A stretch of DNA of 64,000 bases from Natrinema versiforme. GTDB lineage: Archaea; Halobacteriota; Halobacteria; Halobacteriales; Natrialbaceae. How positions within the stretch are numbered: the stretch's first letter is position 1; each line of letters starts with the position of its first letter. Under the pieces are notes generated by a model. The model searched no databases, had not been told where the DNA came from, and worked only from the letters and a program-made list of their open reading frames with translations. The position numbers were made by a program, and so were the translations under genes. Shown here piece by piece: positions 36,006 through 57,183 of the stretch. The stretch is from contig NZ_CP040330.1 of NCBI RefSeq assembly GCF_005576615.1, positions 2,046,001-2,110,000 of the forward strand, read 5' to 3'.

Positions 36006-37478
<1,473 letters not shown>

Positions 37479-44674: not shown

Positions 44675-44809
44675 GACGTATCGGCTACGTGATGGGTGGT
44701 CTTATACTGATCGCCCCGCCGTATGACGAACGCGCACGGAGAGTCGATTGCGGGCCGATACTTCGCCGCTGCCGGTAGCTCTTTGCGAGTGGCACTCGAG
44801 CACACGCCC

Positions 44810-46021
44810 ATGGCTCAGGAAGCGCCGAACGAGGTGTCTCGCGCGCCGTCCGTTGGCGAACTCACACCGCCGGATCGCACCCTGATGGGGCCCGGACCGA
44901 GCGACGTGAACCCGCGCGTGCTCCGAGCGATGAGCACGCCGCTCGTCGGGCATCTCGACCCCTCGTTCATCGAGATCATGGACGAGGTCCAGGAGCTGCT
45001 GCGCTACACGTTCCGTACGGACAACCAGTGGACGATCCCCGTTTCGGGGACCGGGTCGGCGGCCATGGAGGCCGCGATCGGCAACGTGGTCGAGCCCGGC
45101 GATACGATGCTCGTCCCGACGAACGGCTACTTCGGCGGCCGGATGGCCTCGATGGCCGAACGCGCGGGCGGCGACGTCGTCGAGGTATCGGCGCCGTGGG
45201 GCGAGCCCCTCGAGCCCGACGATGTCGCGGACGCGCTGGCCGAACACGACCCCGACGTCTTCGGGTTCGTCCACGCGGAGACGAGCACGGGCGTCCTCCA
45301 GCCCGACGTGCCGGAACTCACTGCGGCGGCCCACGACCACGACGCGCTCGTCATCGCCGACACCGTCACCTCGCTGGGCGGCGTCGAACTCCGCGTCGAC
45401 GAGTGGGACATCGACGTAGCCTACTCCGGCCCCCAGAAGTGTCTCTCCTGTCCGCCGGGCGCGAGCCCACTGACCCTCTCGGACGAGGCGATGGAGAAGG
45501 TCCTCTCCCGCGAGGAGGACCCGCGCTCGTGGTATCTCGACCTCTCCCTGCTCGAGGGCTACTGGGGCGACGAACGGGCCTACCATCACACCGCGCCGAT
45601 TACGAACGTCTACGCGATCCGGGAGGCGCTGCGGCTCGTCGCCGAGGAAGGGATCGAAGACCGCTGGGCGCGCCACGAGCGACTGGCCGGCGCGCTGAAA
45701 GCCGGCGTCGAAGCGATGGGGCTCGCGATGAACGCCCCCGACGAGTACTGGCTGCCGAGCCTGAACGCCGTCCGCGTCCCCGACGGCATCGACGACGGGG
45801 AAGTCTGTGACGCCCTGATCGAGCAGTACGACCTCGAGATCGCCGGCGGACTCGGCGATCTCGCCGGCGAGATCTTCCGGATCGGCTGTATGGGACACTC
45901 CGCGCGACCCGAGAACGTGATCTACGTGGTGACGGCGCTGGGCGACGTCCTCGAGTCGATGGGCGCGGACGTCGATCCGGGAGCCGGTGTGACTGCGACG
46001 CGACGCGCGCTCGAAGAATAA
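44810..46021 (+). CDS. Alanine-glyoxylate/serine-pyruvate-type aminotransferase
   Basis: Encodes 403 residues of a class V PLP enzyme. GPGPSDVNPRVLRAM, SGTGSAAMEAAI, DTVTSLGGVELRVDEW and the PLP-binding K210 in SGPQKCLSCPPG fit the alanine-glyoxylate/serine-pyruvate aminotransferase branch. It could supply or remove glycine and serine, or act in glyoxylate metabolism; the amino donor is not evident. I chose the ATG at 44810 (MAQEAP); a longer frame from 44723 is possible but has no TATA support. Confidence 0.88.
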   Translation: MAQEAPNEVSRAPSVGELTPPDRTLMGPGPSDVNPRVLRAMSTPLVGHLDPSFIEIMDEVQELLRYTFRTDNQWTIPVSGTGSAAMEAAIGNVVEPGDTMLVPTNGYFGGRMASMAERAGGDVVEVSAPWGEPLEPDDVADALAEHDPDVFGFVHAETSTGVLQPDVPELTAAAHDHDALVIADTVTSLGGVELRVDEWDIDVAYSGPQKCLSCPPGASPLTLSDEAMEKVLSREEDPRSWYLDLSLLEGYWGDERAYHHTAPITNVYAIREALRLVAEEGIEDRWARHERLAGALKAGVEAMGLAMNAPDEYWLPSLNAVRVPDGIDDGEVCDALIEQYDLEIAGGLGDLAGEIFRIGCMGHSARPENVIYVVTALGDVLESMGADVDPGAGVTATRRALEE

Positions 46022-46392: not shown

Positions 46393-46770
46393 TCACTACA
46401 CCCTATGTCGGCATCCACCATAAATGTTAGTACGTAGCACGATATTGTGCTCGGAGACGTGTGCAAGGAACAATTGAGCGGAGTTCGGTTTTGCCGGCCA
46501 ATCTCGATTGCTAACTGTGGCGAATTCTATTCGATCGGTTTTCGACCGCTTTCATGCACATAATGGATGTTCTCTCGTCCTTTCCGGTCGTTCTGTTCCC
46601 GACTGCGTATAAACACACACAGATGGACGCCATAATCCCCAATGGTTGAGCGGTTGATTTGAGACACAATGTACCGCGACGGAATCGATCAACGGGCGAA
46701 GAACAGGCGTACACAGCGATGATCGGGCAGAGTCTATCGCGACTCGAGCGAGGACTACAGCGGAGCCACT
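46393..46770. promoter_or_regulatory. Divergent promoter region and long eutB leader
   Basis: This 378-base, A+T-richer gap has a TATA-like element for the leftward gene near 46420 and another, GTATAAAC, near 46607 for eutB, about 160 bases before its start. That implies a leader of roughly 130 bases. In it, GGTTGAT and ATCAACGG form a weak inverted repeat. A GGAG sequence sits 7 bases before the eutB ATG. I could not identify a known riboswitch. Confidence 0.45.
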
Positions 46771-48153
46771 ATGAGTAGCGACGAAACCGAGTACACGGCC
46801 ACGCTCGAGGGAACCGAACACGAGTTCGACTCGATCCGGAGCGTTCTGGCCAAGGCGAACGAGCGAAAGTCGGGCGACGAATTGGCGGGCCTCGCGGCGT
46901 CCTCGAGCGCGGAGCGTATCGCGGCGAAAGATGTCGTCAGTCGACTGACCCTCGAGACACTGTACGAGAATCCCGTCGTCTCCGCGGACGAAGACGAGGT
47001 CACACGGACGATTCGGGACGGTGTCTGCGAAGACACCTACGAGGAAATCGCCGGATGGACCGTCGCCGACCTCCGGGAGTTCCTGCTCGCGGAGTCGACG
47101 GGCGACGAGGAGATTCGAGCGCTCAGAAAAGGGCTAACGAGCGAGATGATCGCGGCCGTCACGAAGCTCATGTCGAACCTCGATCTCGTAGTCGCCGCCG
47201 CCAAGATGACCGTCGTCGCGCGCTGTAACAGTACGATCGGAACGGAGGGAACCGTCTCGTTCCGACTCCAACCCAACGATCCGGCCGACGATACGGAGAA
47301 TATCCTTCACAGTGTTCGCGAGGGACTTTCCTACGGCGTCGGGGACGCCGTGATCGGTATTAATCCGGTAAGCGACGATGCGACACAGGTCAAGGAACTC
47401 CTGCAAGCGACATCGGAGTTCATCGATCGGTGGGATGTCCCGACCCAGAACTGCGTCCTCGCGCATCTCACGACCCAGATGGACGCGGTCCGAAACGGCG
47501 CACCGGCCGACCTGCTCTTCCAGAGCATCGCCGGCACCGAGCGCGGGAATCGGGAGTTCGGTATCGATGTCGAGTTGCTCGACGAGGCAGCCGAACTTGG
47601 AACGAACCGCTGTCTCGGGGATGGACCGAACGTCATGTACTTCGAAACCGGGCAGGGCGCGGAGCTTTCGAACGACGCACACGAAGGCGTCGATCAACTC
47701 ACCCTCGAGGCCCGGTGTTACGGGTTGGCCCGCGAGTACGATCCGTTCCTCGTCAACACCGTGGTCGGCTTTATCGGGCCGGAGTATCTCTACGACGGCA
47801 AGCAGGTCATTCGCGCGGGACTGGAAGACGTGTTCATGGGCAAACTCCACGGGCTGCCGATGGGGATCGACGCCTGCTATACGAACCACACGAAGGCCGA
47901 TCAAAACGACATCGAGAACCTCGCCGTGTTGCTGACCGCCGCCGGTGCGAACTTCTTTATCACGGTGCCGATGGGCGACGACGTGATGCTCAACTACCAG
48001 TCCAACAGCTACCACGACGGACCCACCCTCCGGTCCCTGTTCGGGCTGCAAGCGGCACCCGAGTTCGAGGCGTGGCTCGAGGAGACAGGAATCACCGACG
48101 ACGGGCGGTTGACCGATCGCGCGGGCGATCCGACGATATTCACCCAGCCATGA
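46771..48153 (+). CDS. eutB: Ethanolamine ammonia-lyase large subunit
   Basis: Encodes 460 residues of EutB, the TIM-barrel subunit that binds ethanolamine and, with EutC and adenosylcobalamin, releases ammonia and acetaldehyde by a radical mechanism. The substrate-site residues known from E. coli EutB are all present with a uniform offset of five: R165 and Q167 (FRLQPN), N198 (VIGINP), E292 (YFETGQG) and D367 (GIDACYTNH). Length is close to the E. coli enzyme (453). A GGAG ribosome site precedes the ATG. It overlaps eutC by 4 bases. Function is well supported; the actual amine substrate still needs testing. Confidence 0.95.
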   Translation: MSSDETEYTATLEGTEHEFDSIRSVLAKANERKSGDELAGLAASSSAERIAAKDVVSRLTLETLYENPVVSADEDEVTRTIRDGVCEDTYEEIAGWTVADLREFLLAESTGDEEIRALRKGLTSEMIAAVTKLMSNLDLVVAAAKMTVVARCNSTIGTEGTVSFRLQPNDPADDTENILHSVREGLSYGVGDAVIGINPVSDDATQVKELLQATSEFIDRWDVPTQNCVLAHLTTQMDAVRNGAPADLLFQSIAGTERGNREFGIDVELLDEAAELGTNRCLGDGPNVMYFETGQGAELSNDAHEGVDQLTLEARCYGLAREYDPFLVNTVVGFIGPEYLYDGKQVIRAGLEDVFMGKLHGLPMGIDACYTNHTKADQNDIENLAVLLTAAGANFFITVPMGDDVMLNYQSNSYHDGPTLRSLFGLQAAPEFEAWLEETGITDDGRLTDRAGDPTIFTQP

Positions 48154-48896
48154 CCCCGAATCACGACCGGACGAGCGGCGTCGAAGGCCCCGAAGACGAA
48201 CCCCGACTCGAGCGCATCCGAGACGCGCATCCGTCTCGAGTCGGCGTCGGCCGGACGGGATCGCGACCGCGGACGGAGACGCTTCTCAGGTTTCGACTGG
48301 ACCACGCGAAAGCGCGCGATGCCGTGACCACGCACGTTCCGAACGACCTCGTGGCGGACCTCGACCTCGTGAGTGTCCGATCTCGAGCCGAGAGCAAGAC
48401 GGAATTCCTCGCGGACCCGAGTCAGGGGCGCAATATTTCCGAGGAGACGGCCGAACGCATTCGAGCGGACTGCACGATGGACCCGGAGATACAGATCGTG
48501 GTCAGTGACGGGCTCAGTTCGACCGCAGTCGAGACGAACGTTCCCGAGTTGCTGCCGGTGTTACGCGACGGACTGGCCGATCGGGGCCTCGATGTCGGCA
48601 CGCCGATTTTCGTCGAATACGGTCGAGTCGACGTGATGGACGCGATCGGAGCGGAACTCGGGGCTGATTGTTGTGTGAATCTCGTCGGTGAACGGCCCGG
48701 ACTGGCGACGAACGAGAGCTTGAGCGCGTACTTCGTCGCCGATCCGGAACGGGGCGGGGCGACATCCGAGAAGTCGGTCATTTCGAACATCCATCGAAAC
48801 GGCATCCCGCCCGTCGAGGCCGGAGCCGAGATCGCAGCCGTCCTCGAAGAACTGTGCGAGGCCGAGCGCGGCGGCTCAGAGAGAGGGGATCCGTGA
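48150..48896 (+). CDS. eutC: Ethanolamine ammonia-lyase small subunit
   Basis: Encodes 248 residues of EutC, the Rossmann-like subunit that holds adenosylcobalamin. Conserved blocks are SDGLSSTAVETN, INLIGERPGL-like VNLVGERPGLATNESLSAYF, and SNIHRNGIPPVEAG near the C-terminus. The N-terminal extension (about 1-45) is acidic and poorly conserved. The ATG overlaps the eutB stop (ATGA), so the subunits are made together. The frame is open upstream only as a shadow of eutB. Confidence 0.94.
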   Translation: MTPNHDRTSGVEGPEDEPRLERIRDAHPSRVGVGRTGSRPRTETLLRFRLDHAKARDAVTTHVPNDLVADLDLVSVRSRAESKTEFLADPSQGRNISEETAERIRADCTMDPEIQIVVSDGLSSTAVETNVPELLPVLRDGLADRGLDVGTPIFVEYGRVDVMDAIGAELGADCCVNLVGERPGLATNESLSAYFVADPERGGATSEKSVISNIHRNGIPPVEAGAEIAAVLEELCEAERGGSERGDP

Positions 48897-48916
48897 CTCG
48901 TCCGAGGTGGCCGTAG

Positions 48917-50362
48917 ATGCCCGGCGCGGACCCCGAGACGCTGTCCAGCATCGGCATCGATATCGGAACGACGACAACGCAGGTGATCGTCAGCGATCTC
49001 GTCCTCTCTGCCCCTACGTACAACGGTGCAGCGACCGTCGACGTGGTCGAGCGGCGGGTCCGCTACCGCAGTCCGATCCGGCAGACACCGTTTGCGGGCG
49101 ATCAGGAAATCGACACCGACGCCGTCGGCGAACGCATCGATGCCGACGTGCGGAAGGCGGGATTGACGCCGGACGAAATCGATACCGGTGCGGTCATCGC
49201 GACCGGCGAAGCGGCGCGGAAAGCCAACGCGGAGGCGTTGATAACCCGGTTAGCGGAACGCACCGGCGAGTTCGTCGTCGCGACGGCCGGCGCGTCGCTC
49301 GAGGCGGTGCTGGCCGGCTACGGGTCCGGTGCCGGAGATCGAAGCGGTACCGATGGGTCGACCATCGCAACCGTCGATATCGGCGGTGGGACGACGAACA
49401 TCGCCGTGTTCGAAGACGGCAAACCGTTGCAGACGCGATGTCTCGACGTCGGCGGCCGGCTCGTCCGGTTCGACGACGACGGGCTCGTCCGCGCGGTCGC
49501 GGAACCGATCAGGCGCTGTCGGCCGCCGGACCGCTCCGCGATCGACATCGGGTCGACGCGGTCGGACGCGGACTGGAACGCGCTCGCACGGCGGCTGGCT
49601 GATCGTGTCTTCGATGCCATCGAGGGGCCGCCGTTCGACGAGACGACGCGGGCGCTGGCGGTTACCGATCTCCCCGAGACTGCGGTCGATATCGATGAAG
49701 TCGTGTTTACCGGCGGCGTCGGTCGCCTCGTTTCGGACCCCGCGGTCGATACTCGCGATCCCCTCGAGTACGGTGATCTCGGCGTTCGTCTCGCCGCCGC
49801 GATCCGAACCCACGAGCGGTTCGACGCGCTCCCGGTCCGGCAGTCGGCCGAAGACATCCGGGCGACCGTCATCGGCGCGGGAACGCGAACGACGACGTTT
49901 ACCGGTCGAACGATCGCTCCGGCGGCCGCGTTGCTGCCGGCCAGAAACCTCCCGGTGCTCGCACTCGAGGGACTCGAGGCGGCGGACTCCGTCGACGCCG
50001 TGCGAGCGCGGACGGCGGCGGTGCTCCGAACCGCCCGGAACCGCCGGGATATTACCGGGCTGTTCGCCCTCCACGTCTCGAGCGTGGGGCCGCTCGCCTA
50101 CGACCGGCTTCGACTCGTCGCGCGGGGGATCGCCGCTGCCTGCGATGCCCGACTCGACGGATCGCAGCCGTTGGTTCTATTGACCGAACAGAACTGCGCG
50201 AAAGTGCTCGGCCAACTGCTCGAGTCGATGATCGACGCCGAATCGGTGATGGTCCTCGACGAACTCGCGGTCACCGAAGACGAGTACGTCGATCTCGGAA
50301 CGCCGGTCGCGGAAAACGCCGCCGTTCCGGTAACGATCAAGACGCTCGTATTTGACGAATGA
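48917..50362 (+). CDS. eutA: Ethanolamine ammonia-lyase reactivating factor
   Basis: Encodes 481 residues with the actin/Hsp70-like ATPase fold: the phosphate-1 motif GIDIGTTTTQVIVSD near the N-terminus and a second ATVDIGGGTTNIAVFEDG near 150. EutA exchanges damaged cobalamin on EutBC for fresh adenosylcobalamin, using ATP. A GAGGTGG site precedes the ATG by about 6 bases, and the gene follows eutC by 20 bases. Its presence shows the enzyme is maintained in vivo. Confidence 0.93.
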   Translation: MPGADPETLSSIGIDIGTTTTQVIVSDLVLSAPTYNGAATVDVVERRVRYRSPIRQTPFAGDQEIDTDAVGERIDADVRKAGLTPDEIDTGAVIATGEAARKANAEALITRLAERTGEFVVATAGASLEAVLAGYGSGAGDRSGTDGSTIATVDIGGGTTNIAVFEDGKPLQTRCLDVGGRLVRFDDDGLVRAVAEPIRRCRPPDRSAIDIGSTRSDADWNALARRLADRVFDAIEGPPFDETTRALAVTDLPETAVDIDEVVFTGGVGRLVSDPAVDTRDPLEYGDLGVRLAAAIRTHERFDALPVRQSAEDIRATVIGAGTRTTTFTGRTIAPAAALLPARNLPVLALEGLEAADSVDAVRARTAAVLRTARNRRDITGLFALHVSSVGPLAYDRLRLVARGIAAACDARLDGSQPLVLLTEQNCAKVLGQLLESMIDAESVMVLDELAVTEDEYVDLGTPVAENAAVPVTIKTLVFDE

Positions 50363-50457
50363 TTGGCTATCGAGCGAAAGCGATGGTGCAACGACTGTCA
50401 TCTCGGATCTCGATGTGAGGATTTAACCCAATCGGGTCGCTTCTCTCCGAGTATCAC

Positions 50458-51795
50458 ATGGGTTCGAACAGCGCAGCGAGCGAGTACGACCGGGTACGAG
50501 TGCTGTGGACCGACCTGAACGGCATCGCCCGCGGAAACGTCGTCCCCGCATCGACTTTCGACCGGCAACGCGAGGACGGGTTCGGATTCGCAGCGGGAGT
50601 CGCGGAGCTGACGCTCGAGCCGGGACTTCTCGAGAACTCAACCTACGGTCCCGAAAGCGGTGACGTCGTCGCTGTTCCGGATGCAGCGCCGCCGATACCG
50701 CTCGAGTGGCGTGAGGGAGTCGGGCTCGCGTTCGCCGATCTCACACACGTCGACAGAACGCCGTTTGCCCTCTGTAGTCGCACTGCCCTAGATCGCGTGA
50801 CCGCCGCGCTCGAAGCGGCCGGATACGTTCCACGGGTCGGTATCGAACTGGAGTTTTCGGTGCTTCGATCGGCCGACGACGGCGGCTACGAACCGTTCAA
50901 CGACCGAAGCTCGTACGCAATGGACGCGCTCGATCGGGCGACGGAGTTGATAGACGACTGGACCGACGCAATGACGGCCGCCGGACTCGAGGTGACGTGT
51001 GTCCATCAGGAATCCCAGCCCGGCCAGTACGAGATTACCTTCGAACACGGAGATCCGATCGAAATTGCCGACGGCGTCGCCTTCGTTCGGCACATGCTCA
51101 CGTCGGTGGCCAACCAGCACGGGGTGACAGCCTCGATGATGCCGGCTCCGTACACGGGGGCGGACGCCAACGGAATGCACGTCCATCTGAGCTTGTGGGA
51201 CGACGCGCTGGAAACGAACGCGTTCGCGGCCGAGACGAACGACCTCGAGTTCCCGTCCGGAACGCGACCCGACGGAGCCGGGATTTCGGCGGTTGCACGA
51301 CACGCCATCGCAGGGCTCCTCGCACATTCGAACGCGCTTACGGCGGTCTGTGCGCCCACGGTCAATTCCTACCGGCGGTTACGACCCGGTTCTTGGGCCC
51401 CGGTTTCTATCGCGTGGGGGCCGGACAACCGATCGACCGTGCTCCGCGTTCCCCCGCATCTGGGCCCCGCCACCCGTCTCGAGTTCCGCCTCCCCGACAC
51501 GTCGTCGAATCCGTATCTCGTGCTCGCTGCCGTGCTCGCGGCCGGACTGGACGGCATCGAAAATCAGCGCGACCCGCCCGCGCCGACGACTGGAAACGCG
51601 CAGCGAGAGGAACACGAACGGCTCCCGCGAACCCTCTGGGCTGCACTCGACCATCTCGAAGCGAACGAGGTCGTGGCTCGCCAACTGGGTGAGCCGCTCG
51701 TGGAATCGTTCATCTCGATAAAGCGAGACGAGTTCGACCGGTATCAGGGAGCCGTCTCCGAGTGGGAACGCGAGACGTATCTCGACGCGTTCTGA
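50458..51795 (+). CDS. Glutamine synthetase-family ligase, likely gamma-glutamyl-amine type
   Basis: Encodes 445 residues of the GS type I fold. It has GIELEFSVL (metal-binding Glu), ESQPGQYEITF, ADANGMHVHLSLWD, NSYRRLRPGSWAP, WGPDNRSTVLRVP and EFRLPDTSSNPYLV. These motifs match the GlnA-like relatives (such as bacterial gamma-glutamylpolyamine and gamma-glutamylethanolamide synthetases) better than housekeeping GlnA, whose HHEVATAGQ and PSARNRSAAIR-type sequences differ. Position right after eutA suggests that it either conjugates ethanolamine to glutamate or assimilates the ammonia released by EutBC. It has its own TATA-like GATTTAAC about 33 bases before the ATG. The exact amine is inference. 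Confidence 0.75.
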   Translation: MGSNSAASEYDRVRVLWTDLNGIARGNVVPASTFDRQREDGFGFAAGVAELTLEPGLLENSTYGPESGDVVAVPDAAPPIPLEWREGVGLAFADLTHVDRTPFALCSRTALDRVTAALEAAGYVPRVGIELEFSVLRSADDGGYEPFNDRSSYAMDALDRATELIDDWTDAMTAAGLEVTCVHQESQPGQYEITFEHGDPIEIADGVAFVRHMLTSVANQHGVTASMMPAPYTGADANGMHVHLSLWDDALETNAFAAETNDLEFPSGTRPDGAGISAVARHAIAGLLAHSNALTAVCAPTVNSYRRLRPGSWAPVSIAWGPDNRSTVLRVPPHLGPATRLEFRLPDTSSNPYLVLAAVLAAGLDGIENQRDPPAPTTGNAQREEHERLPRTLWAALDHLEANEVVARQLGEPLVESFISIKRDEFDRYQGAVSEWERETYLDAF

Positions 51796-51797
51796 GT

Positions 51798-52544
51798 TCA
51801 GGTCCGCGAGGAGACGTACTCGTCGGTCGTCGCGTCTCCCGTGGTCGGCCCGGCATCCGTCAACAGGGGAAACACCGCCTCGAGTATCTTCGCCTCGGAC
51901 CGACGAAGGTGATTACCGACGGTCGATGCGTTCGCCGAGTCGGTCTCGGCGAGGGTTTCGATACTGCAGGCTCGCGGCGAATCGTAGTAGCCACGGTCGA
52001 TTGCTCGAGCGAGAATCTCGCGCTGTCGAGGGGAGAGACGTTGGACGGCCTGCTTGATATCGATCAGTCCGGTCAGTAGCCCGTCGAGTTCGGGTGCGCC
52101 GAGGGAGTCGACCGTGATCGAGCCGAGATTCCGGAGTTCGTCGTGGGCTTGACTTACCGCTTCGTTCGTCGGGACGATCACGCTCCAGTGTTCCCGTCCG
52201 TCGGCGACGGTCGCCGGAACGGTCGGGAAACACCGGTTTCGGAGGAGCACGTTCAGGACCGGTTCGGTGTCGTCGTCGTACTCGCCGACGAGCGAGACGT
52301 ACGCGTTTTCGCTCGCCTCGTCGTACTGTAGCAGCTGCGCCGTCGTCATCACCGGATGGTCGTCGAGCCACGCGACGAGTTCGTCGATCGCCGAGCCTCG
52401 AACGTTGTTGAGCTCGATCATCGTAATACTACTCCCGAGCAGCCGATAGGAGTAGATTATCGTCGCTGTGACATCCGGAAACGTCTCGTTTATCGTCTCG
52501 GTCCAGCAGCCGTCGTGTCGTATATAAAACGTGTATTCGAGCAC
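51798..52544 (-). CDS. HTH-10 (Bat-like) regulator next to the eut cluster
   Basis: Encodes 248 residues. The N-terminal half is an uncharacterised alpha/beta sensor-like part; the C-terminus has the HTH-10 domain (LSPRQREILARAIDRGYYDSPRACS, NASTVGNHLRRSEAKI, about 165-230). The start is GTG at 52544, preceded by an excellent GGAGG site, and the frame has no alternative. It converges on the glnA-like gene with a 2-base gap, and the ABC importer reads toward it, so it is a candidate regulator of both sets. Direct repeats at 52588-52643 lie upstream. Confidence 0.88.
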   Translation of the reverse strand: MLEYTFYIRHDGCWTETINETFPDVTATIIYSYRLLGSSITMIELNNVRGSAIDELVAWLDDHPVMTTAQLLQYDEASENAYVSLVGEYDDDTEPVLNVLLRNRCFPTVPATVADGREHWSVIVPTNEAVSQAHDELRNLGSITVDSLGAPELDGLLTGLIDIKQAVQRLSPRQREILARAIDRGYYDSPRACSIETLAETDSANASTVGNHLRRSEAKILEAVFPLLTDAGPTTGDATTDEYVSSRT

Positions 52545-52587
52545 GGTCGCGCCTCCGTTTGATTACATTCGTAACTGGTACGGCCAG

Positions 52588-52643
52588 TATATACGCATTT
52601 CTACCACTGTTTAGATCACTCATTATATTATATATACGCATTT
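52588..52643 (-). promoter_or_regulatory. Two direct repeats in the regulator promoter
   Basis: TATATACGCATTT occurs at 52588-52600 and again at 52631-52643, 43 bases apart (AAATGCGTATATA on the minus strand). The nearer copy overlaps a TATA element about 45 bases before the HTH-10 GTG start. The interval is much richer in A+T than its surroundings. They could be duplicate promoters or binding sites for the regulator itself. Confidence 0.5.
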
Positions 52644-52718
52644 TGGGAAAAGTAGAACGAATGTTCGCTAATAGATCGGAGTGGATCGCCCCGGCGATCC
52701 GATCGGAAACCTGGCCTA

Positions 52719-53522
52719 TTACCTCTCGGACCGCACCTCCATAACGATCGCCACGAGGAGCAAGAGAAGCGATGCGTAGAAGATCAGCGAGGCGAGTGCC
52801 GGGACGACCGGCGTGAACCCCTGGGTCATTCGCCCGTGAATCCACGTCGTGATGGTGATCTCCGAGCCCTTGAGATACGAGACGATGTAGTAGTTGTTCC
52901 ACGAGAGGACGAACGCAAAGATGGCACCCGAGACGATTCCGTTCGCGATGAGGGGTAACAGCACGTCCTTGTAGATGGTGAGCGTGTCGGCACCGAGATC
53001 ACGGGCCGCCTCCTCGATGTTCGGGTCGACGCCGAGTGCGCTGATCGAGACGACGAACATGACGATCGGCGAGATCCAGACGGTTTCGCCGATGATCGCC
53101 GGCACGATACCGTAGCCGAGTCCGGTCACGCTCGCCCACATCGACATCCCGAGGCCGAGGAGAATCAACGGGAAGAAGATCGGCAAGAGCGCGACGATCT
53201 TGAAGTACTCCCGACCGCGGAACGAGTAGCGCGTGTACGCGATCGCCCCCGCCGTACCGATAACGGTGCTGAGAATCGTCACCGGAACCGAGATGCGGAT
53301 CGTCGAGTCGACGGCGGACTGGACACTCGTCGAGGTCACGGCGTTTCGGTACCACTCGAGGGTAAACTCGAACGGCAACGAGAAGGTCTGGCCGCTGTCG
53401 AACGACGCGATGATGAGGCTGAGCAACGGCGTCATCAGGAACGCGATGATGAGGACGAGGTAGCCGTACCAGAGGCCGGTCGACAGTCGAGGGAGCCACG
53501 AGCGGTTCGAGCGCGTGCTCAT
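52719..53522 (-). CDS. ABC importer permease (PotC-type)
   Basis: Encodes 267 residues with six hydrophobic helices and the permease signature ISALGVDPNIEEAARDLGADTLTIYKDVLLPLI (EAA-loop) at about 170-200, which contacts the ATPase. It closely resembles PotC of spermidine/putrescine importers. Its first codons overlap the preceding permease gene by 4 bases. Together with the three upstream genes it forms one importer, which here may bring in ethanolamine or a polyamine. Confidence 0.88.
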   Translation of the reverse strand: MSTRSNRSWLPRLSTGLWYGYLVLIIAFLMTPLLSLIIASFDSGQTFSLPFEFTLEWYRNAVTSTSVQSAVDSTIRISVPVTILSTVIGTAGAIAYTRYSFRGREYFKIVALLPIFFPLILLGLGMSMWASVTGLGYGIVPAIIGETVWISPIVMFVVSISALGVDPNIEEAARDLGADTLTIYKDVLLPLIANGIVSGAIFAFVLSWNNYYIVSYLKGSEITITTWIHGRMTQGFTPVVPALASLIFYASLLLLLVAIVMEVRSER

Positions 53523-54463
53523 CGGGAACCACCCCGCGATGCGATTTCGGCCAGATCGATCGTCCGCAAGATTACGATGCCACAGACCGTCGTGATGAGC
53601 AACAGGCCGACGGCTTGTGCCGAGCCGAGCGGCCAGTTCTGTGAGTAGCCAAACGAGTAACTGATGTTACTCGCCGCGGTGTAGACCGTCCCGCCGCCGA
53701 GCAGTTCCGCTTCGACCTCCGCTCCGAGGCTCAGGACGAACACGAACAACGACCCGATGATGACCCCCGGTTTCGACAGCGGGAGGATGATGTCGACGAA
53801 CTGTTTCGCTCGTCCCGCACCGAGGTCCGCCGCCGCCTCGAGGAGCGAGTCGTCGATCGTACTGATCGAGAGGTAGATCGGGAACAGCATGTAGGGGAGA
53901 TAGACGTACACCGTTCCGAGCACGACGGCGCTGCGAGTGTAAATGATCGACGGGACGTCCAATCCGACGCTTCCGGCGAGGAGGTCGAAGACGCCGTCGT
54001 TGATCAAGAACAGCACCCAGCCGTAGACGCGAATGTTGACGCTCGTAAAGAGCGGAATAATGAGCGCGATCAGAATGGGGAGTTTGAATCGACGAACTTT
54101 CGTCGCGAGTGCGTAGGCGGCGGGGTAGGAAACGACGAACGCGACGACCGTCGTCAGCGCACTGATGACGATCGTGTTGAGCGTCACCTCCCCGTAGACG
54201 CCCTCGCCGCTGAGCGTTCCCCGTACGATCTCCCGGTAGGCCTCGAGCGTCCAGTCGGCCACGGAAAGCGAAATTACGTTCTCGGTCTGTACCGAGAACA
54301 GAACGATCGCGACGATCGGACCCACGAACATGAACGCCAGCAGCGCGAGCAACGGAAGCATGAGCCCGCCCGGTGGGCCCAGCGAGGAGACCGACGCGAG
54401 CCGGCGACCGGGCCGGTCAATAGCCGCCGGAACCTTCGAGCGAACGAACTCTTTGACCGACAT
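53519..54463 (-). CDS. ABC importer permease (PotB-type)
   Basis: Encodes 314 residues with an N-terminal positively charged tail and six to seven helices. The EAA-loop is LLEAAADLGAGRAKQFVDIILPLSKPG (about 220-247). It resembles PotB and pairs with the PotC-type permease. The ATG at 54463 overlaps the ATPase stop by 1 base (TGATG), so initiation at 54508 is unlikely. Confidence 0.88.
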   Translation of the reverse strand: MSVKEFVRSKVPAAIDRPGRRLASVSSLGPPGGLMLPLLALLAFMFVGPIVAIVLFSVQTENVISLSVADWTLEAYREIVRGTLSGEGVYGEVTLNTIVISALTTVVAFVVSYPAAYALATKVRRFKLPILIALIIPLFTSVNIRVYGWVLFLINDGVFDLLAGSVGLDVPSIIYTRSAVVLGTVYVYLPYMLFPIYLSISTIDDSLLEAAADLGAGRAKQFVDIILPLSKPGVIIGSLFVFVLSLGAEVEAELLGGGTVYTAASNISYSFGYSQNWPLGSAQAVGLLLITTVCGIVILRTIDLAEIASRGGSR

Positions 54464-55539
54464 CAGGAGCCGCCCCCGGTGAGGACGTGCGTTTTCTCGG
54501 GTACCCACTGCAGGTACGCGTCTTCGCCGTCCGTCAGCCCGATCTCCGCGACCCGGTCGAGGGGCATTTCAGCGACGTACTCCGCGTCGTCGCGTGTCCC
54601 CCGTACCTCGACCAGCGCCGTGTTCCCCTTGTTGAGAACGTTTACGACGGTCACTTGAATCCCGATCTCGCTCTCGAGTGTGGGTTTGACGACGGTGTCG
54701 TCGTGACGGACGACCAGATACTCCGGATCCGGCCGATCGGCGGGCCCGTAGGGGAATTCTCGAGTACCCTCGAGCATGGGATGGTCGATACGGACCGTGC
54801 CGTCGGCCCGGTCGACGACATCGATCGGGAAAACGTTCGTATCGCCCATGAACTCCGCGACGAACTTGTTGGCCGGCTCTTGATAGATCTCGTCCGGGCT
54901 GCCGCGCTGGACGACCGAGCCGTCGTCGATGACGAACAGTTGGTCGCTCATGATCAAGGCCGACTCGAGGGAGTGTGTCACGTAGACGAACGTCGTGTTC
55001 AACTCGGCGTTGAGTTCGGTTAGTTCGCGCTGGAGTTTCTTCTGTAACACGTAATCGAGTGACGCGAGCGGTTCGTCGAGCAACAGGATATCGGGTTCGT
55101 ACGCGAGCGACCGCGTGAGCGCGACGCGCTGTTTCTGGCCGCCGCTGAGATCGCTGACCGGCTTATCGGCGAACTCCTCGGGATCGAGCCGAACCTGTTC
55201 GAGTAGTCGCTCGACTCGCCCGTTCGGTTCCAAATTTCGCGCTTCGATCGGAAACTCGATGTTCTCTGCGACGGTCATATGCGGGAACAGCGACCACGAC
55301 TGGAACACGAGACTCGTCGGCCGCTGCTGTGGCGGCGAGTCGGTGATGTCTACCCCGTCGAGTTCGATCCGGCCCGCAGTCGGTGACAGGTGGCCGGCGA
55401 GCATTCTGAGCAGCGTCGACTTCCCGCACCCGCTGGGACCGACGATCGTCGCGAACGATCCCGATTCGATCTCGAATCCGACGTCTTCGACGGCGATGGT
55501 CGATCCATACTCCTTTCGTAAGTTAGCAGCTTTGAGCAT
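54463..55539 (-). CDS. ABC importer ATPase (PotA-type)
   Basis: Encodes 358 residues: Walker A GPSGCGKST (34-42), the Q-loop, the signature LSGGQKQRVALTRSL, Walker B ILLLDEPLASLD, and a C-terminal TOBE-type domain (about 270-358). This is the PotA/FbpC layout, in which the C-terminal domain controls the transporter. It starts 50 bases after the binding-protein gene. A cytoplasmic energy unit for the PotB/PotC-type permeases. Confidence 0.93.
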   Translation of the reverse strand: MLKAANLRKEYGSTIAVEDVGFEIESGSFATIVGPSGCGKSTLLRMLAGHLSPTAGRIELDGVDITDSPPQQRPTSLVFQSWSLFPHMTVAENIEFPIEARNLEPNGRVERLLEQVRLDPEEFADKPVSDLSGGQKQRVALTRSLAYEPDILLLDEPLASLDYVLQKKLQRELTELNAELNTTFVYVTHSLESALIMSDQLFVIDDGSVVQRGSPDEIYQEPANKFVAEFMGDTNVFPIDVVDRADGTVRIDHPMLEGTREFPYGPADRPDPEYLVVRHDDTVVKPTLESEIGIQVTVVNVLNKGNTALVEVRGTRDDAEYVAEMPLDRVAEIGLTDGEDAYLQWVPEKTHVLTGGGS

Positions 55540-55590
55540 CTGTTAGAACGTAATTCCGGTAAATTCTTGTTGCAGTCAGTCTCGGTCCGC

Positions 55591-56829
55591 TTACATCCTC
55601 GTCTTCGCTTCGCGCCAGATCGGCTCGAACTTCTCGAGGTCGGGAACGCCCTCGTAGAACACCGATTGTTCGATGATGTCTTCGATCTCGTCGATTCGGA
55701 GGACCCGCCGCTGTTCGTCGGTGTAGTTCTCCCACGCGGTCCGGTGGGGGACGACGTTCGTGCCGCCCGAATCCGGCCACGACAGCTCCAGTGCGTTTTC
55801 GCCCCGCATCATGTAGGCCATGTAGTTGTCCGAAACGTTCGGCTGAGGGCCCTTGACGAACGATGTCGATTCGACCCAAATGACCGATCCCTCGTCGGGG
55901 ACGACCGCCTCGAATTCGTAGTTGCCGTCGCGCCGAAGCGATCCGTTGATCCAGTTGCCGCTGATGAAACCGATATCGATTTCGCCGGAGGTCAGCGCCT
56001 GATTCATCGAGGCGAAGTCCGTCAGGAGGGTCGAGGCGTTATCGAAGAGATCGAAGGTCGCCTGTCTGACCTGTTCGATTTCCTCGTCGGTGTGTTCTTT
56101 GAACGGGTCGATCCCCTCTCGGAGCATGATGATCTGGATGCCCCAGAACATCAGATCGTAGACGCCGACGTCGTACTGGTCGGACCACGCGATGTCGTAC
56201 GACTGGTAATCCGACTCCGCGACGGTATCAGTATTCACTGCAAACGATGCCCAACCGAACCGTTGGGGGAACGTGTACAGCGTTCCGTCGGCGTCGAAGG
56301 TGTAATCGTCCTCGTTAACGAACGCGTACTTGTAGCCGTTCTCGGGCTGGAAGAGGTCGATATACTGATCGAACGTGTACGGCTTCCAACTCTCGTAATC
56401 GATCGGGCGGATCAGTTCGGCTTCGGCGAGTCGCGGGACCCACGCCATGTCGAACGTACACTGTTCGAACTGTCGCCACTCGCCGGACTGCAGGCGATTG
56501 AACGCTTGTGCGTTGTCCGTAAACAGGTCGATGTTCGTGTTGGCGTTGAACTGTTCGCGAAACGGCCCCTGGACGTTCTCCGCATCGTATCCCGTCCACG
56601 TGAGATGGGCGAGCGTCTCCGATGAATCGCGTTCGGTTTCCGACGGCTCGTAGAGCGCGGGATGCTCCTCCGCGGGAACTTCGGCGAGTTCGTCGGTTTG
56701 CCACGGTTCGGCCCCTTCTATTTCGTCTTCGCCGCCGAGACAGCCGGCCAGCACGGCGACTCCCGACGCCGCTGCACCGCCGACGCCACGGAGCACGGCG
56801 CGGCGATCGAACGACGGTTGGTTTACCAT
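55591..56829 (-). CDS. ABC importer substrate-binding lipoprotein (PotD-type)
   Basis: Encodes 412 residues. The start has a twin-arginine motif (DRRAVLR), a hydrophobic core and a lipobox ending at C30 (AVLAGC), so export by Tat and lipid anchoring are predicted. The mature part resembles PotD-type periplasmic binding proteins (LTWTGYDAENVQGPF, FGWASFAVNTDTV, SGNWINGSL). The substrate is not readable; location next to eut genes makes ethanolamine or a polyamine plausible. First gene of the importer operon. Confidence 0.85.
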   Translation of the reverse strand: MVNQPSFDRRAVLRGVGGAAASGVAVLAGCLGGEDEIEGAEPWQTDELAEVPAEEHPALYEPSETERDSSETLAHLTWTGYDAENVQGPFREQFNANTNIDLFTDNAQAFNRLQSGEWRQFEQCTFDMAWVPRLAEAELIRPIDYESWKPYTFDQYIDLFQPENGYKYAFVNEDDYTFDADGTLYTFPQRFGWASFAVNTDTVAESDYQSYDIAWSDQYDVGVYDLMFWGIQIIMLREGIDPFKEHTDEEIEQVRQATFDLFDNASTLLTDFASMNQALTSGEIDIGFISGNWINGSLRRDGNYEFEAVVPDEGSVIWVESTSFVKGPQPNVSDNYMAYMMRGENALELSWPDSGGTNVVPHRTAWENYTDEQRRVLRIDEIEDIIEQSVFYEGVPDLEKFEPIWREAKTRM

Positions 56830-57183
56830 CGCTGCTCCCCGGAGTCACCGGATGCTTTCGAGAACTGGATGAAGTTGTTCCCAATACCCGTAATTGATAC
56901 CATACACACTCCTTATCCGTATTTCACTTGGTGATTATGGCGCATATCACCGACCGCTTATATAGACGTAAACCACTGCCAGCCCCAAACAGGGAGTGTC
57001 CGTGATTTCGGGGTAGTGGGACGGAGCAATCCCGCTCATGCGGACACGGTCGGTCGAGACCGACGGCAGTTGAACCGACGATATCGTCTCTCACTGGTCT
57101 CGAGTACCGCGTCGGAGCGCGAGAACCGCCGCTTCGGTCGGTCGAAACGCGGTCAGTCTCTCGGAAAAACGGCGCGGGCGACG
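56830..57183. other. Intergenic region with the importer promoter
   Basis: A 354-base gap. On the minus strand TATA-like ATACGGATAAGG lies about 90 bases upstream of the PotD-type gene, and the segment around 56930-56965 is A+T-rich with a further GCTTATATA element. Beyond that (about 57000-57180) I see no ORF of protein character, repeat or RNA gene. Confidence 0.4.

Follow-up and report, generated by a model that had tools for sequence, protein, structure and literature searches.

The locus described here lies in a 64,000 nt stretch of the Natrinema versiforme genome (genome label G000), which we call the window and whose coordinates are used throughout, and comprises nine genes that encode an ethanolamine ammonia-lyase set, a glutamine synthetase (GS)-like protein, a regulator and an ATP-binding cassette (ABC) importer. 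An earlier note on this DNA had described overlapping or close-set eut genes followed by a GS-family gene, an HTH_10 gene and a complete converging importer, and searches of open reading frames (ORFs) with Pfam and NCBIfam profiles place all nine genes where that note had put them. On the plus strand, the order is eutB (46771..48153), encoding the lyase large subunit (PF06751, 686 bits with a cut-off of 25; NF011649 above cut-off); eutC (48150..48896), the small subunit (PF05985, 248.6 bits; NF003971 above cut-off), which aligns with the solved E. coli EutC; eutA (48917..50362), the lyase reactivase (PF06277, 428.8 bits; under the NCBIfam equivalog cut-offs); and the GS-like gene (50458..51795), whose product has a full Gln-synt_C domain (331.5 bits) and is probably an amine ligase, predicted to be a gamma-glutamylethanolamide synthetase. 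eutB and eutC overlap by 4 bp, eutC and eutA are separated by 20 bp, and the GS-like gene follows eutA after a gap of 95 bp. Convergent with these on the minus strand is an operon in the order potD-potA-potB-potC-HTH_10, encoding a PotD-type lipoprotein substrate-binding protein (55591..56829); a PotA-type ATPase (54463..55539; PF00005, ABC_tran, 124.6 bits; best NCBIfam match PhnT2/PotA); a PotB-type permease (53519..54463; PF00528, BPD_transp_1; best NCBIfam match PotB); a PotC-type permease (52719..53522; PF00528, BPD_transp_1; best NCBIfam match PotC); and, as last gene of the operon and next to the convergent ligase gene, the HTH_10 regulator (51798..52544; PF04967, 50.7 bits). The potB start is most likely 54463 (the longest ORF reaches 54508), which fits the 311-324 aa of its relatives.

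The lyase appears intact. EutB, the only one in the host genome, aligns at equal length with E. coli EutB (positions 10-457 to 5-452), and the equivalents of E. coli R160, Q162, N193, F258, E287, F329 and D362, which we take to be the active-site residues of the solved enzyme, are all identical. By sequence, EutB and EutC are ethanolamine ammonia-lyase homologues with their catalytic residues, predicted to have adenosylcobalamin (AdoCbl)-dependent activity, and eutB, eutC and eutA are homologous to genes for proteins of the Salmonella eut metabolosome. The locus contains no shell genes and no EutE, EutD, EutG, EutT, EutQ or EutH, and bacterial microcompartment shell proteins (PF00936) were found in none of 16 eut-bearing haloarchaeal genomes (the host and 15 others), in a search whose E. 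coli and Synechococcus controls matched. The shell-free organization claimed in the earlier note is thus borne out genome-wide, and gene content likewise supports its proposal of a free cytoplasmic EutBCA system linked to its own importer in a haloarchaeon. Bacteria are known to have short, compartment-free eut operons (PMC5821096, PMC9426561), and the window set fits this type in its gene content: eutBC with a dedicated transporter, of predicted ethanolamine specificity, and no shell genes. A full-genome search of the kind the note had suggested found 13 full-length aldehyde dehydrogenases (ALDHs) away from the locus and, among cobalamin enzymes coded elsewhere, a PduO-type adenosyltransferase and CobS. 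In the stretch L085:4656-8499 (G000, contig C2), the adenosyltransferase gene lies directly behind two genes that resemble glycine dehydrogenase subunits by their sequence starts.

In an alignment with the products of the host's two other GS genes, the GS-like protein has Ala at the equivalent of D50 and Trp at that of E327, and it retains the metal, ATP and arginine residues as well as the equivalent of Y179. The E327 position is Trp in PauA7 and Phe in GlnA4 (PMC6529630), and Haloferax mediterranei GlnA-2, a proven glutamate-putrescine ligase, is also without D50 and E327 (PMC8394153). The window protein therefore shares the GlnA4-like residue pattern (no D50 or E327, a bulky side chain in the latter position, and intact metal and ATP residues), although this pattern is common to other amine ligases and so is necessary, not sufficient, for that assignment. 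Because it lacks both acidic residues needed for ammonia, the protein is probably an amine ligase rather than an ammonia trap, and gene content at its loci leads us to predict ligation of ethanolamine. It falls below the cut-offs of the type I GS, type III GS and gamma-glutamylputrescine synthetase models, scoring 280 bits against 429 required for type I GlnA and 333.5 bits against 650 for gamma-glutamylputrescine synthetase (NF045547), a model on which the haloarchaeal L146 protein reaches 725. Its best solved relative is the glutamate-methylamine ligase 9qur, and it is 38-40% identical to haloarchaeal proteins of gamma-glutamylputrescine type. At L146, L147 and L148, a GS of the gamma-glutamylputrescine synthetase type is paired with an M20 peptidase and an amidohydrolase, and these loci resemble a separate amine-use cluster.

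In a sample of 391 genomes of the haloarchaeal class (86 genera), EutB occurs in 40 genomes from 19 genera, and among the loci fetched eutC and eutA adjoin eutB wherever the contig allows; in two genomes of one genus (L061, L065) eutA is inverted relative to eutBC. Searches with the ligase, counted at an identity of at least 52%, and with the binding protein reveal that ligase and HTH_10, mostly together with the importer, form a separate unit present in 17 of the 391 genomes. This importer-regulator-ligase module pairs elsewhere with a different pathway, a fact beyond the view of the window alone. At each of the 17 module loci the HTH_10 and ligase genes are neighbors, including loci without the ABC importer; at the G162 module no obvious local transporter is found among the ORFs read. 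eutBCA sits beside the module ligase in 6 of the 17 genomes: the window, a second Natrinema, Natronorubrum, two Haloarcula-type genomes and G231. The earlier note's expectation that importer and ligase would be conserved beside eut genes in relatives consequently stands for a subset only, with the ligase beside eut in 6 of the 40 eut genomes and the importer in 5. Where they are linked, the arrangement takes two gene orders across G000, G164, G329, G185, G188 and Halobellus sp. Atlit-31R, the last from outside the sample. The Natrinema/Natronorubrum order is eutBCA, ligase, and then the convergent HTH_10 and pot operon; the Haloarcula-type order, shared by the Halobellus strain, is eutBCA, potDABC, HTH_10 and a convergent ligase. 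In G231, on a 10 kb contig, eutBCA is accompanied by ligase and HTH_10 while an APC amino-acid permease replaces the ABC importer. Recurrence of the linkage in relatives with different gene orders shows it to be more than chance. In the EutB tree the window, L052, L058, L074, L079 and L172 form one supported clade (100/99) and G231 (L049) falls in another, and the binding-protein tree has eut-linked importers in two places, its supported branches forcing at least two changes, so that the pairing of eutBCA with the module probably arose or was exchanged more than once.

Other neighbors of eut genes include an MFS transporter, a TctABC transporter, a different ABC importer and an aldehyde ferredoxin oxidoreductase. 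The gene for this last enzyme is at or within a few genes of eutB in 13 genomes (L063, L067-L073, L078, L081-L084), and its product is a candidate acetaldehyde oxidizer of compartment-free eut systems. The class V aminotransferase gene at 44723-46021 was considered as a member of the window system and rejected, as it adjoins eutB only in two Natrinema genomes and one distant locus. No Rfam match, to a cobalamin riboswitch or any other RNA, was found around the operons.

The remaining 11 of the 17 module genomes lack EutB, and in every one of them an ALDH and an Fe-type alcohol dehydrogenase (Fe-ADH) are encoded beside the ligase and regulator. An M81 (MlrC-type) peptidase gene lies between the ALDH and Fe-ADH genes in 10 of these 11 loci, the importer is likewise present in 10, and glycine-cleavage genes (GcvT or GcvH) adjoin this alternative set in several. 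None of the 17 module genomes carries both sets (nominal P 8e-5, uncorrected for kinship). Both versions occur within the genus Halobellus. The six eut-module genomes have no M81 protein genome-wide and no Fe-ADH above 39% identity, and the best ALDH match in the window genome is 40% identical. The ligase must have an amine to work on and the successive Fe-ADH and ALDH an alcohol, while ethanolamine is the substrate of EutBC; a compound common to both sets should thus be an amino alcohol, and ethanolamine fits both. We regard the eut-free set as a candidate gamma-glutamylethanolamide route to glycine, the order gamma-glutamylethanolamide, gamma-glutamylglycine, glycine being that proposed for Phaeobacter (PMC10132767).

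The two versions also share a promoter element. A matrix derived solely from eight potD promoters taken from eut-free loci was used to score 992 upstream regions, and the 28 highest scores all fall to genes of the module, namely potD, Fe-ADH, eutB where it is module-linked, one ligase gene and the G231 permease. Outside the module the top score is 11.3, compared with 17.6-21.7 for module-linked eutB promoters (17.9 at L172). The matrix matches 6 of the 7 eutB promoters linked to the module and none of the 33 unlinked ones (P 1.8e-6, uncorrected for kinship). With both strands of the window scanned, its two best positions are those 5' of eutB (46608) and 5' of potD (56962), the first being the TATA-containing element TATAAACACACACAGATGGACGCCATAATCC (46608..46638, plus strand, score 19.6) and the second TATAAGCGGTCGGTGATATGCGCCATAATCA (56932..56962, minus strand, score 14.5). 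The exact pattern of these two sites has no third occurrence in the 4.67 Mb genome, which, since the pattern was read from the sites themselves, indicates specificity and not discovery. The location of the element immediately 3' of the TATA box suggests repression, and many copies contain an imperfect CCG-N8-CGG dyad that would suit a dimeric repressor, for which HTH_10 is the obvious candidate. The TATA box is 163 bp from the start codon of eutB and 133 bp from that of potD, so both transcripts should have long leaders (46640-46770; 56830-56930). Such leaders would be unusual for haloarchaea. Elsewhere in the window, a matrix score of 14.2 is reached on the minus strand at 37073, where a CGACC/GGTCG dyad stands without a TATA box.

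The importer's binding protein belongs to a subfamily of its own, with 69-98% identity inside the module. It has diverged from PotD such that its best Pfam match is sub-threshold and NCBIfam gives no match; its nearest solved relatives are PotD proteins (E 0.006-0.014). Neither a PotD model nor a Pfam cut-off, either of which would mark a PotABCD polyamine importer, is reached. The ratio of non-synonymous to synonymous substitution rates (dN/dS) is 0.024 and 0.032 against two relatives. Proteins 56-60% identical to the module PotD are encoded without the ligase in other contexts at L143, L144, L145 and L176-L178, for example in Halobacterium salinarum and Halovenus.

We consider it probable, from these comparisons of gene content and sequence, that the window carries, in its EutBC version, a haloarchaeal regulon for ethanolamine use whose catabolic branches are exchangeable. 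The PotDABC-type importer would take up ethanolamine, and AdoCbl-dependent EutBC, kept active by EutA, would cleave it to acetaldehyde and ammonia within the cytoplasm. The acetaldehyde would be oxidized by aldehyde dehydrogenases coded elsewhere and the ammonia assimilated by the genome's ordinary GS enzymes, with HTH_10 probably controlling the eutBCA-ligase and importer operons via the one shared element. Relatives would use this importer, regulator and ligase for a cobalamin-free route in which the ligase makes gamma-glutamylethanolamide, Fe-ADH and ALDH oxidize this to gamma-glutamylglycine, and glycine and glutamate may then be set free by the M81 peptidase; in gene content, the EutBCA set and the Fe-ADH/ALDH set replace one another.

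Several observations weigh against this interpretation. No module accompanies 34 of the 40 eut loci. The window locus has no gene for acetaldehyde disposal, and 0 of 10 host ALDHs scanned pass the ExaC cut-off. The AlphaFold model of the binding protein is too poor for inspection of its pocket (mean predicted local distance difference test score, pLDDT, 34.6). The matrix score includes the TATA box, and once this is removed the module eutB promoters individually have P values of 0.02 to 0.23, so that the claim of a shared element rests on the full element and the comparison with 992 upstream regions; the G231 eutB promoter gives no match. Finally, the ligase of the eut version is without visible downstream enzymes and evolves faster there.

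This last point bears on an account compatible with the rest of our preferred explanation, namely that beside eut genes the ligase is a decaying relic of the gamma-glutamyl route while EutBCA does the work by itself, which we hold to be a real if minority possibility. On average, ligases encoded at eut loci are 57-60% identical to the eut-free set, compared with 68-76% among eut-free loci, whereas the L074, L079 and L172 binding proteins fall within the normal range. Ligase dN/dS is 0.15-0.22 at eut loci compared with 0.03-0.10 at eut-free loci, suggesting that where eut is present the gene is still conserved, with a constraint that is relaxed or changed. Purifying selection nevertheless persists, the eut-locus ligases of several lineages keep their catalytic residues, and the window ligase gene sits directly behind eutA, all of which argue against mere decay. 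The ligase may instead still act on ethanolamine beside EutBC; a rather unlikely, though not negligible, form of this is that its role there is not catabolic, gamma-glutamylethanolamide being either a signal for HTH_10 or a cytoplasmic ethanolamine store that meters the supply to EutBC and thereby limits acetaldehyde in the absence of a microcompartment.

Less probable still is that importer, HTH_10 and GS-like gene constitute a putrescine (polyamine) uptake and gamma-glutamylation module that lies beside eutBCA by chance. The importer components are PotABC-like by profile and haloarchaeal GlnA-2 is proven to ligate putrescine (PMC8394153), but the window ligase reaches about half of the gamma-glutamylputrescine synthetase cut-off that another haloarchaeal protein passes, the partner genes at eut-free loci include an alcohol dehydrogenase and not an amine oxidase, the linkage to eutBCA recurs in rearranged form, and the importer's promoter element is common to eutB. 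That the GS-like protein is an ordinary GS trapping the ammonia released by EutBC, as the earlier note had it, is very improbable despite the shared fold and operon and the retained Y179 equivalent, given the loss of D50 and E327 with Trp in the latter position as in PauA7 (PMC6529630), the score below the GlnA cut-off, the much higher GS-domain scores of the two other host GS genes, and the company the same ligase keeps with dehydrogenases in eut-free genomes.

Among known systems, the short eut operons of Pseudomonas, Acinetobacter and Actinobacteria likewise combine shell-free EutBC with a transporter, free in the cell (PMC5821096, PMC9426561, PMC6529630). Those operons have the Eat permease and, where described, EutR or EatR, whereas the archaeal locus has an ABC importer, HTH_10, EutA and an amine ligase. 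With the Salmonella eut metabolosome it has the EutB, EutC and EutA homologues in common but none of the shell and accessory proteins listed above. The gamma-glutamylethanolamide pathway of Streptomyces GlnA4 and of Phaeobacter joins a GS-like ligase to dehydrogenases, as does the eut-free version of the module (PMC6529630, PMC10132767), although Phaeobacter has a TRAP importer and a gamma-glutamylglycine amidohydrolase (PMC10132767), whose counterparts at the haloarchaeal loci are an ABC importer and an M81 peptidase; the window itself differs in having EutBCA in place of the dehydrogenases. H. mediterranei GlnA-2 resembles the window ligase as a haloarchaeal GS-like protein without D50 and E327 (PMC8394153), but the latter departs from the GlnA-2 type in its low identity to gamma-glutamylputrescine-type haloarchaeal proteins and its failure to reach the family cut-off.

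In the literature searched, which leaves most subscription literature outside, we found no description of ethanolamine ammonia-lyase operons or of the gamma-glutamylethanolamide route in haloarchaea, nor, for archaea, an earlier description of a choice between two breakdown routes behind one module. The comparison suggests a testable substrate for the importer and the regulator. It also presents a clear natural example of two unrelated pathways, only one of which requires cobalamin, taking each other's place behind a common importer, ligase, regulator and promoter element, and it bears on how cells without a compartment handle acetaldehyde.

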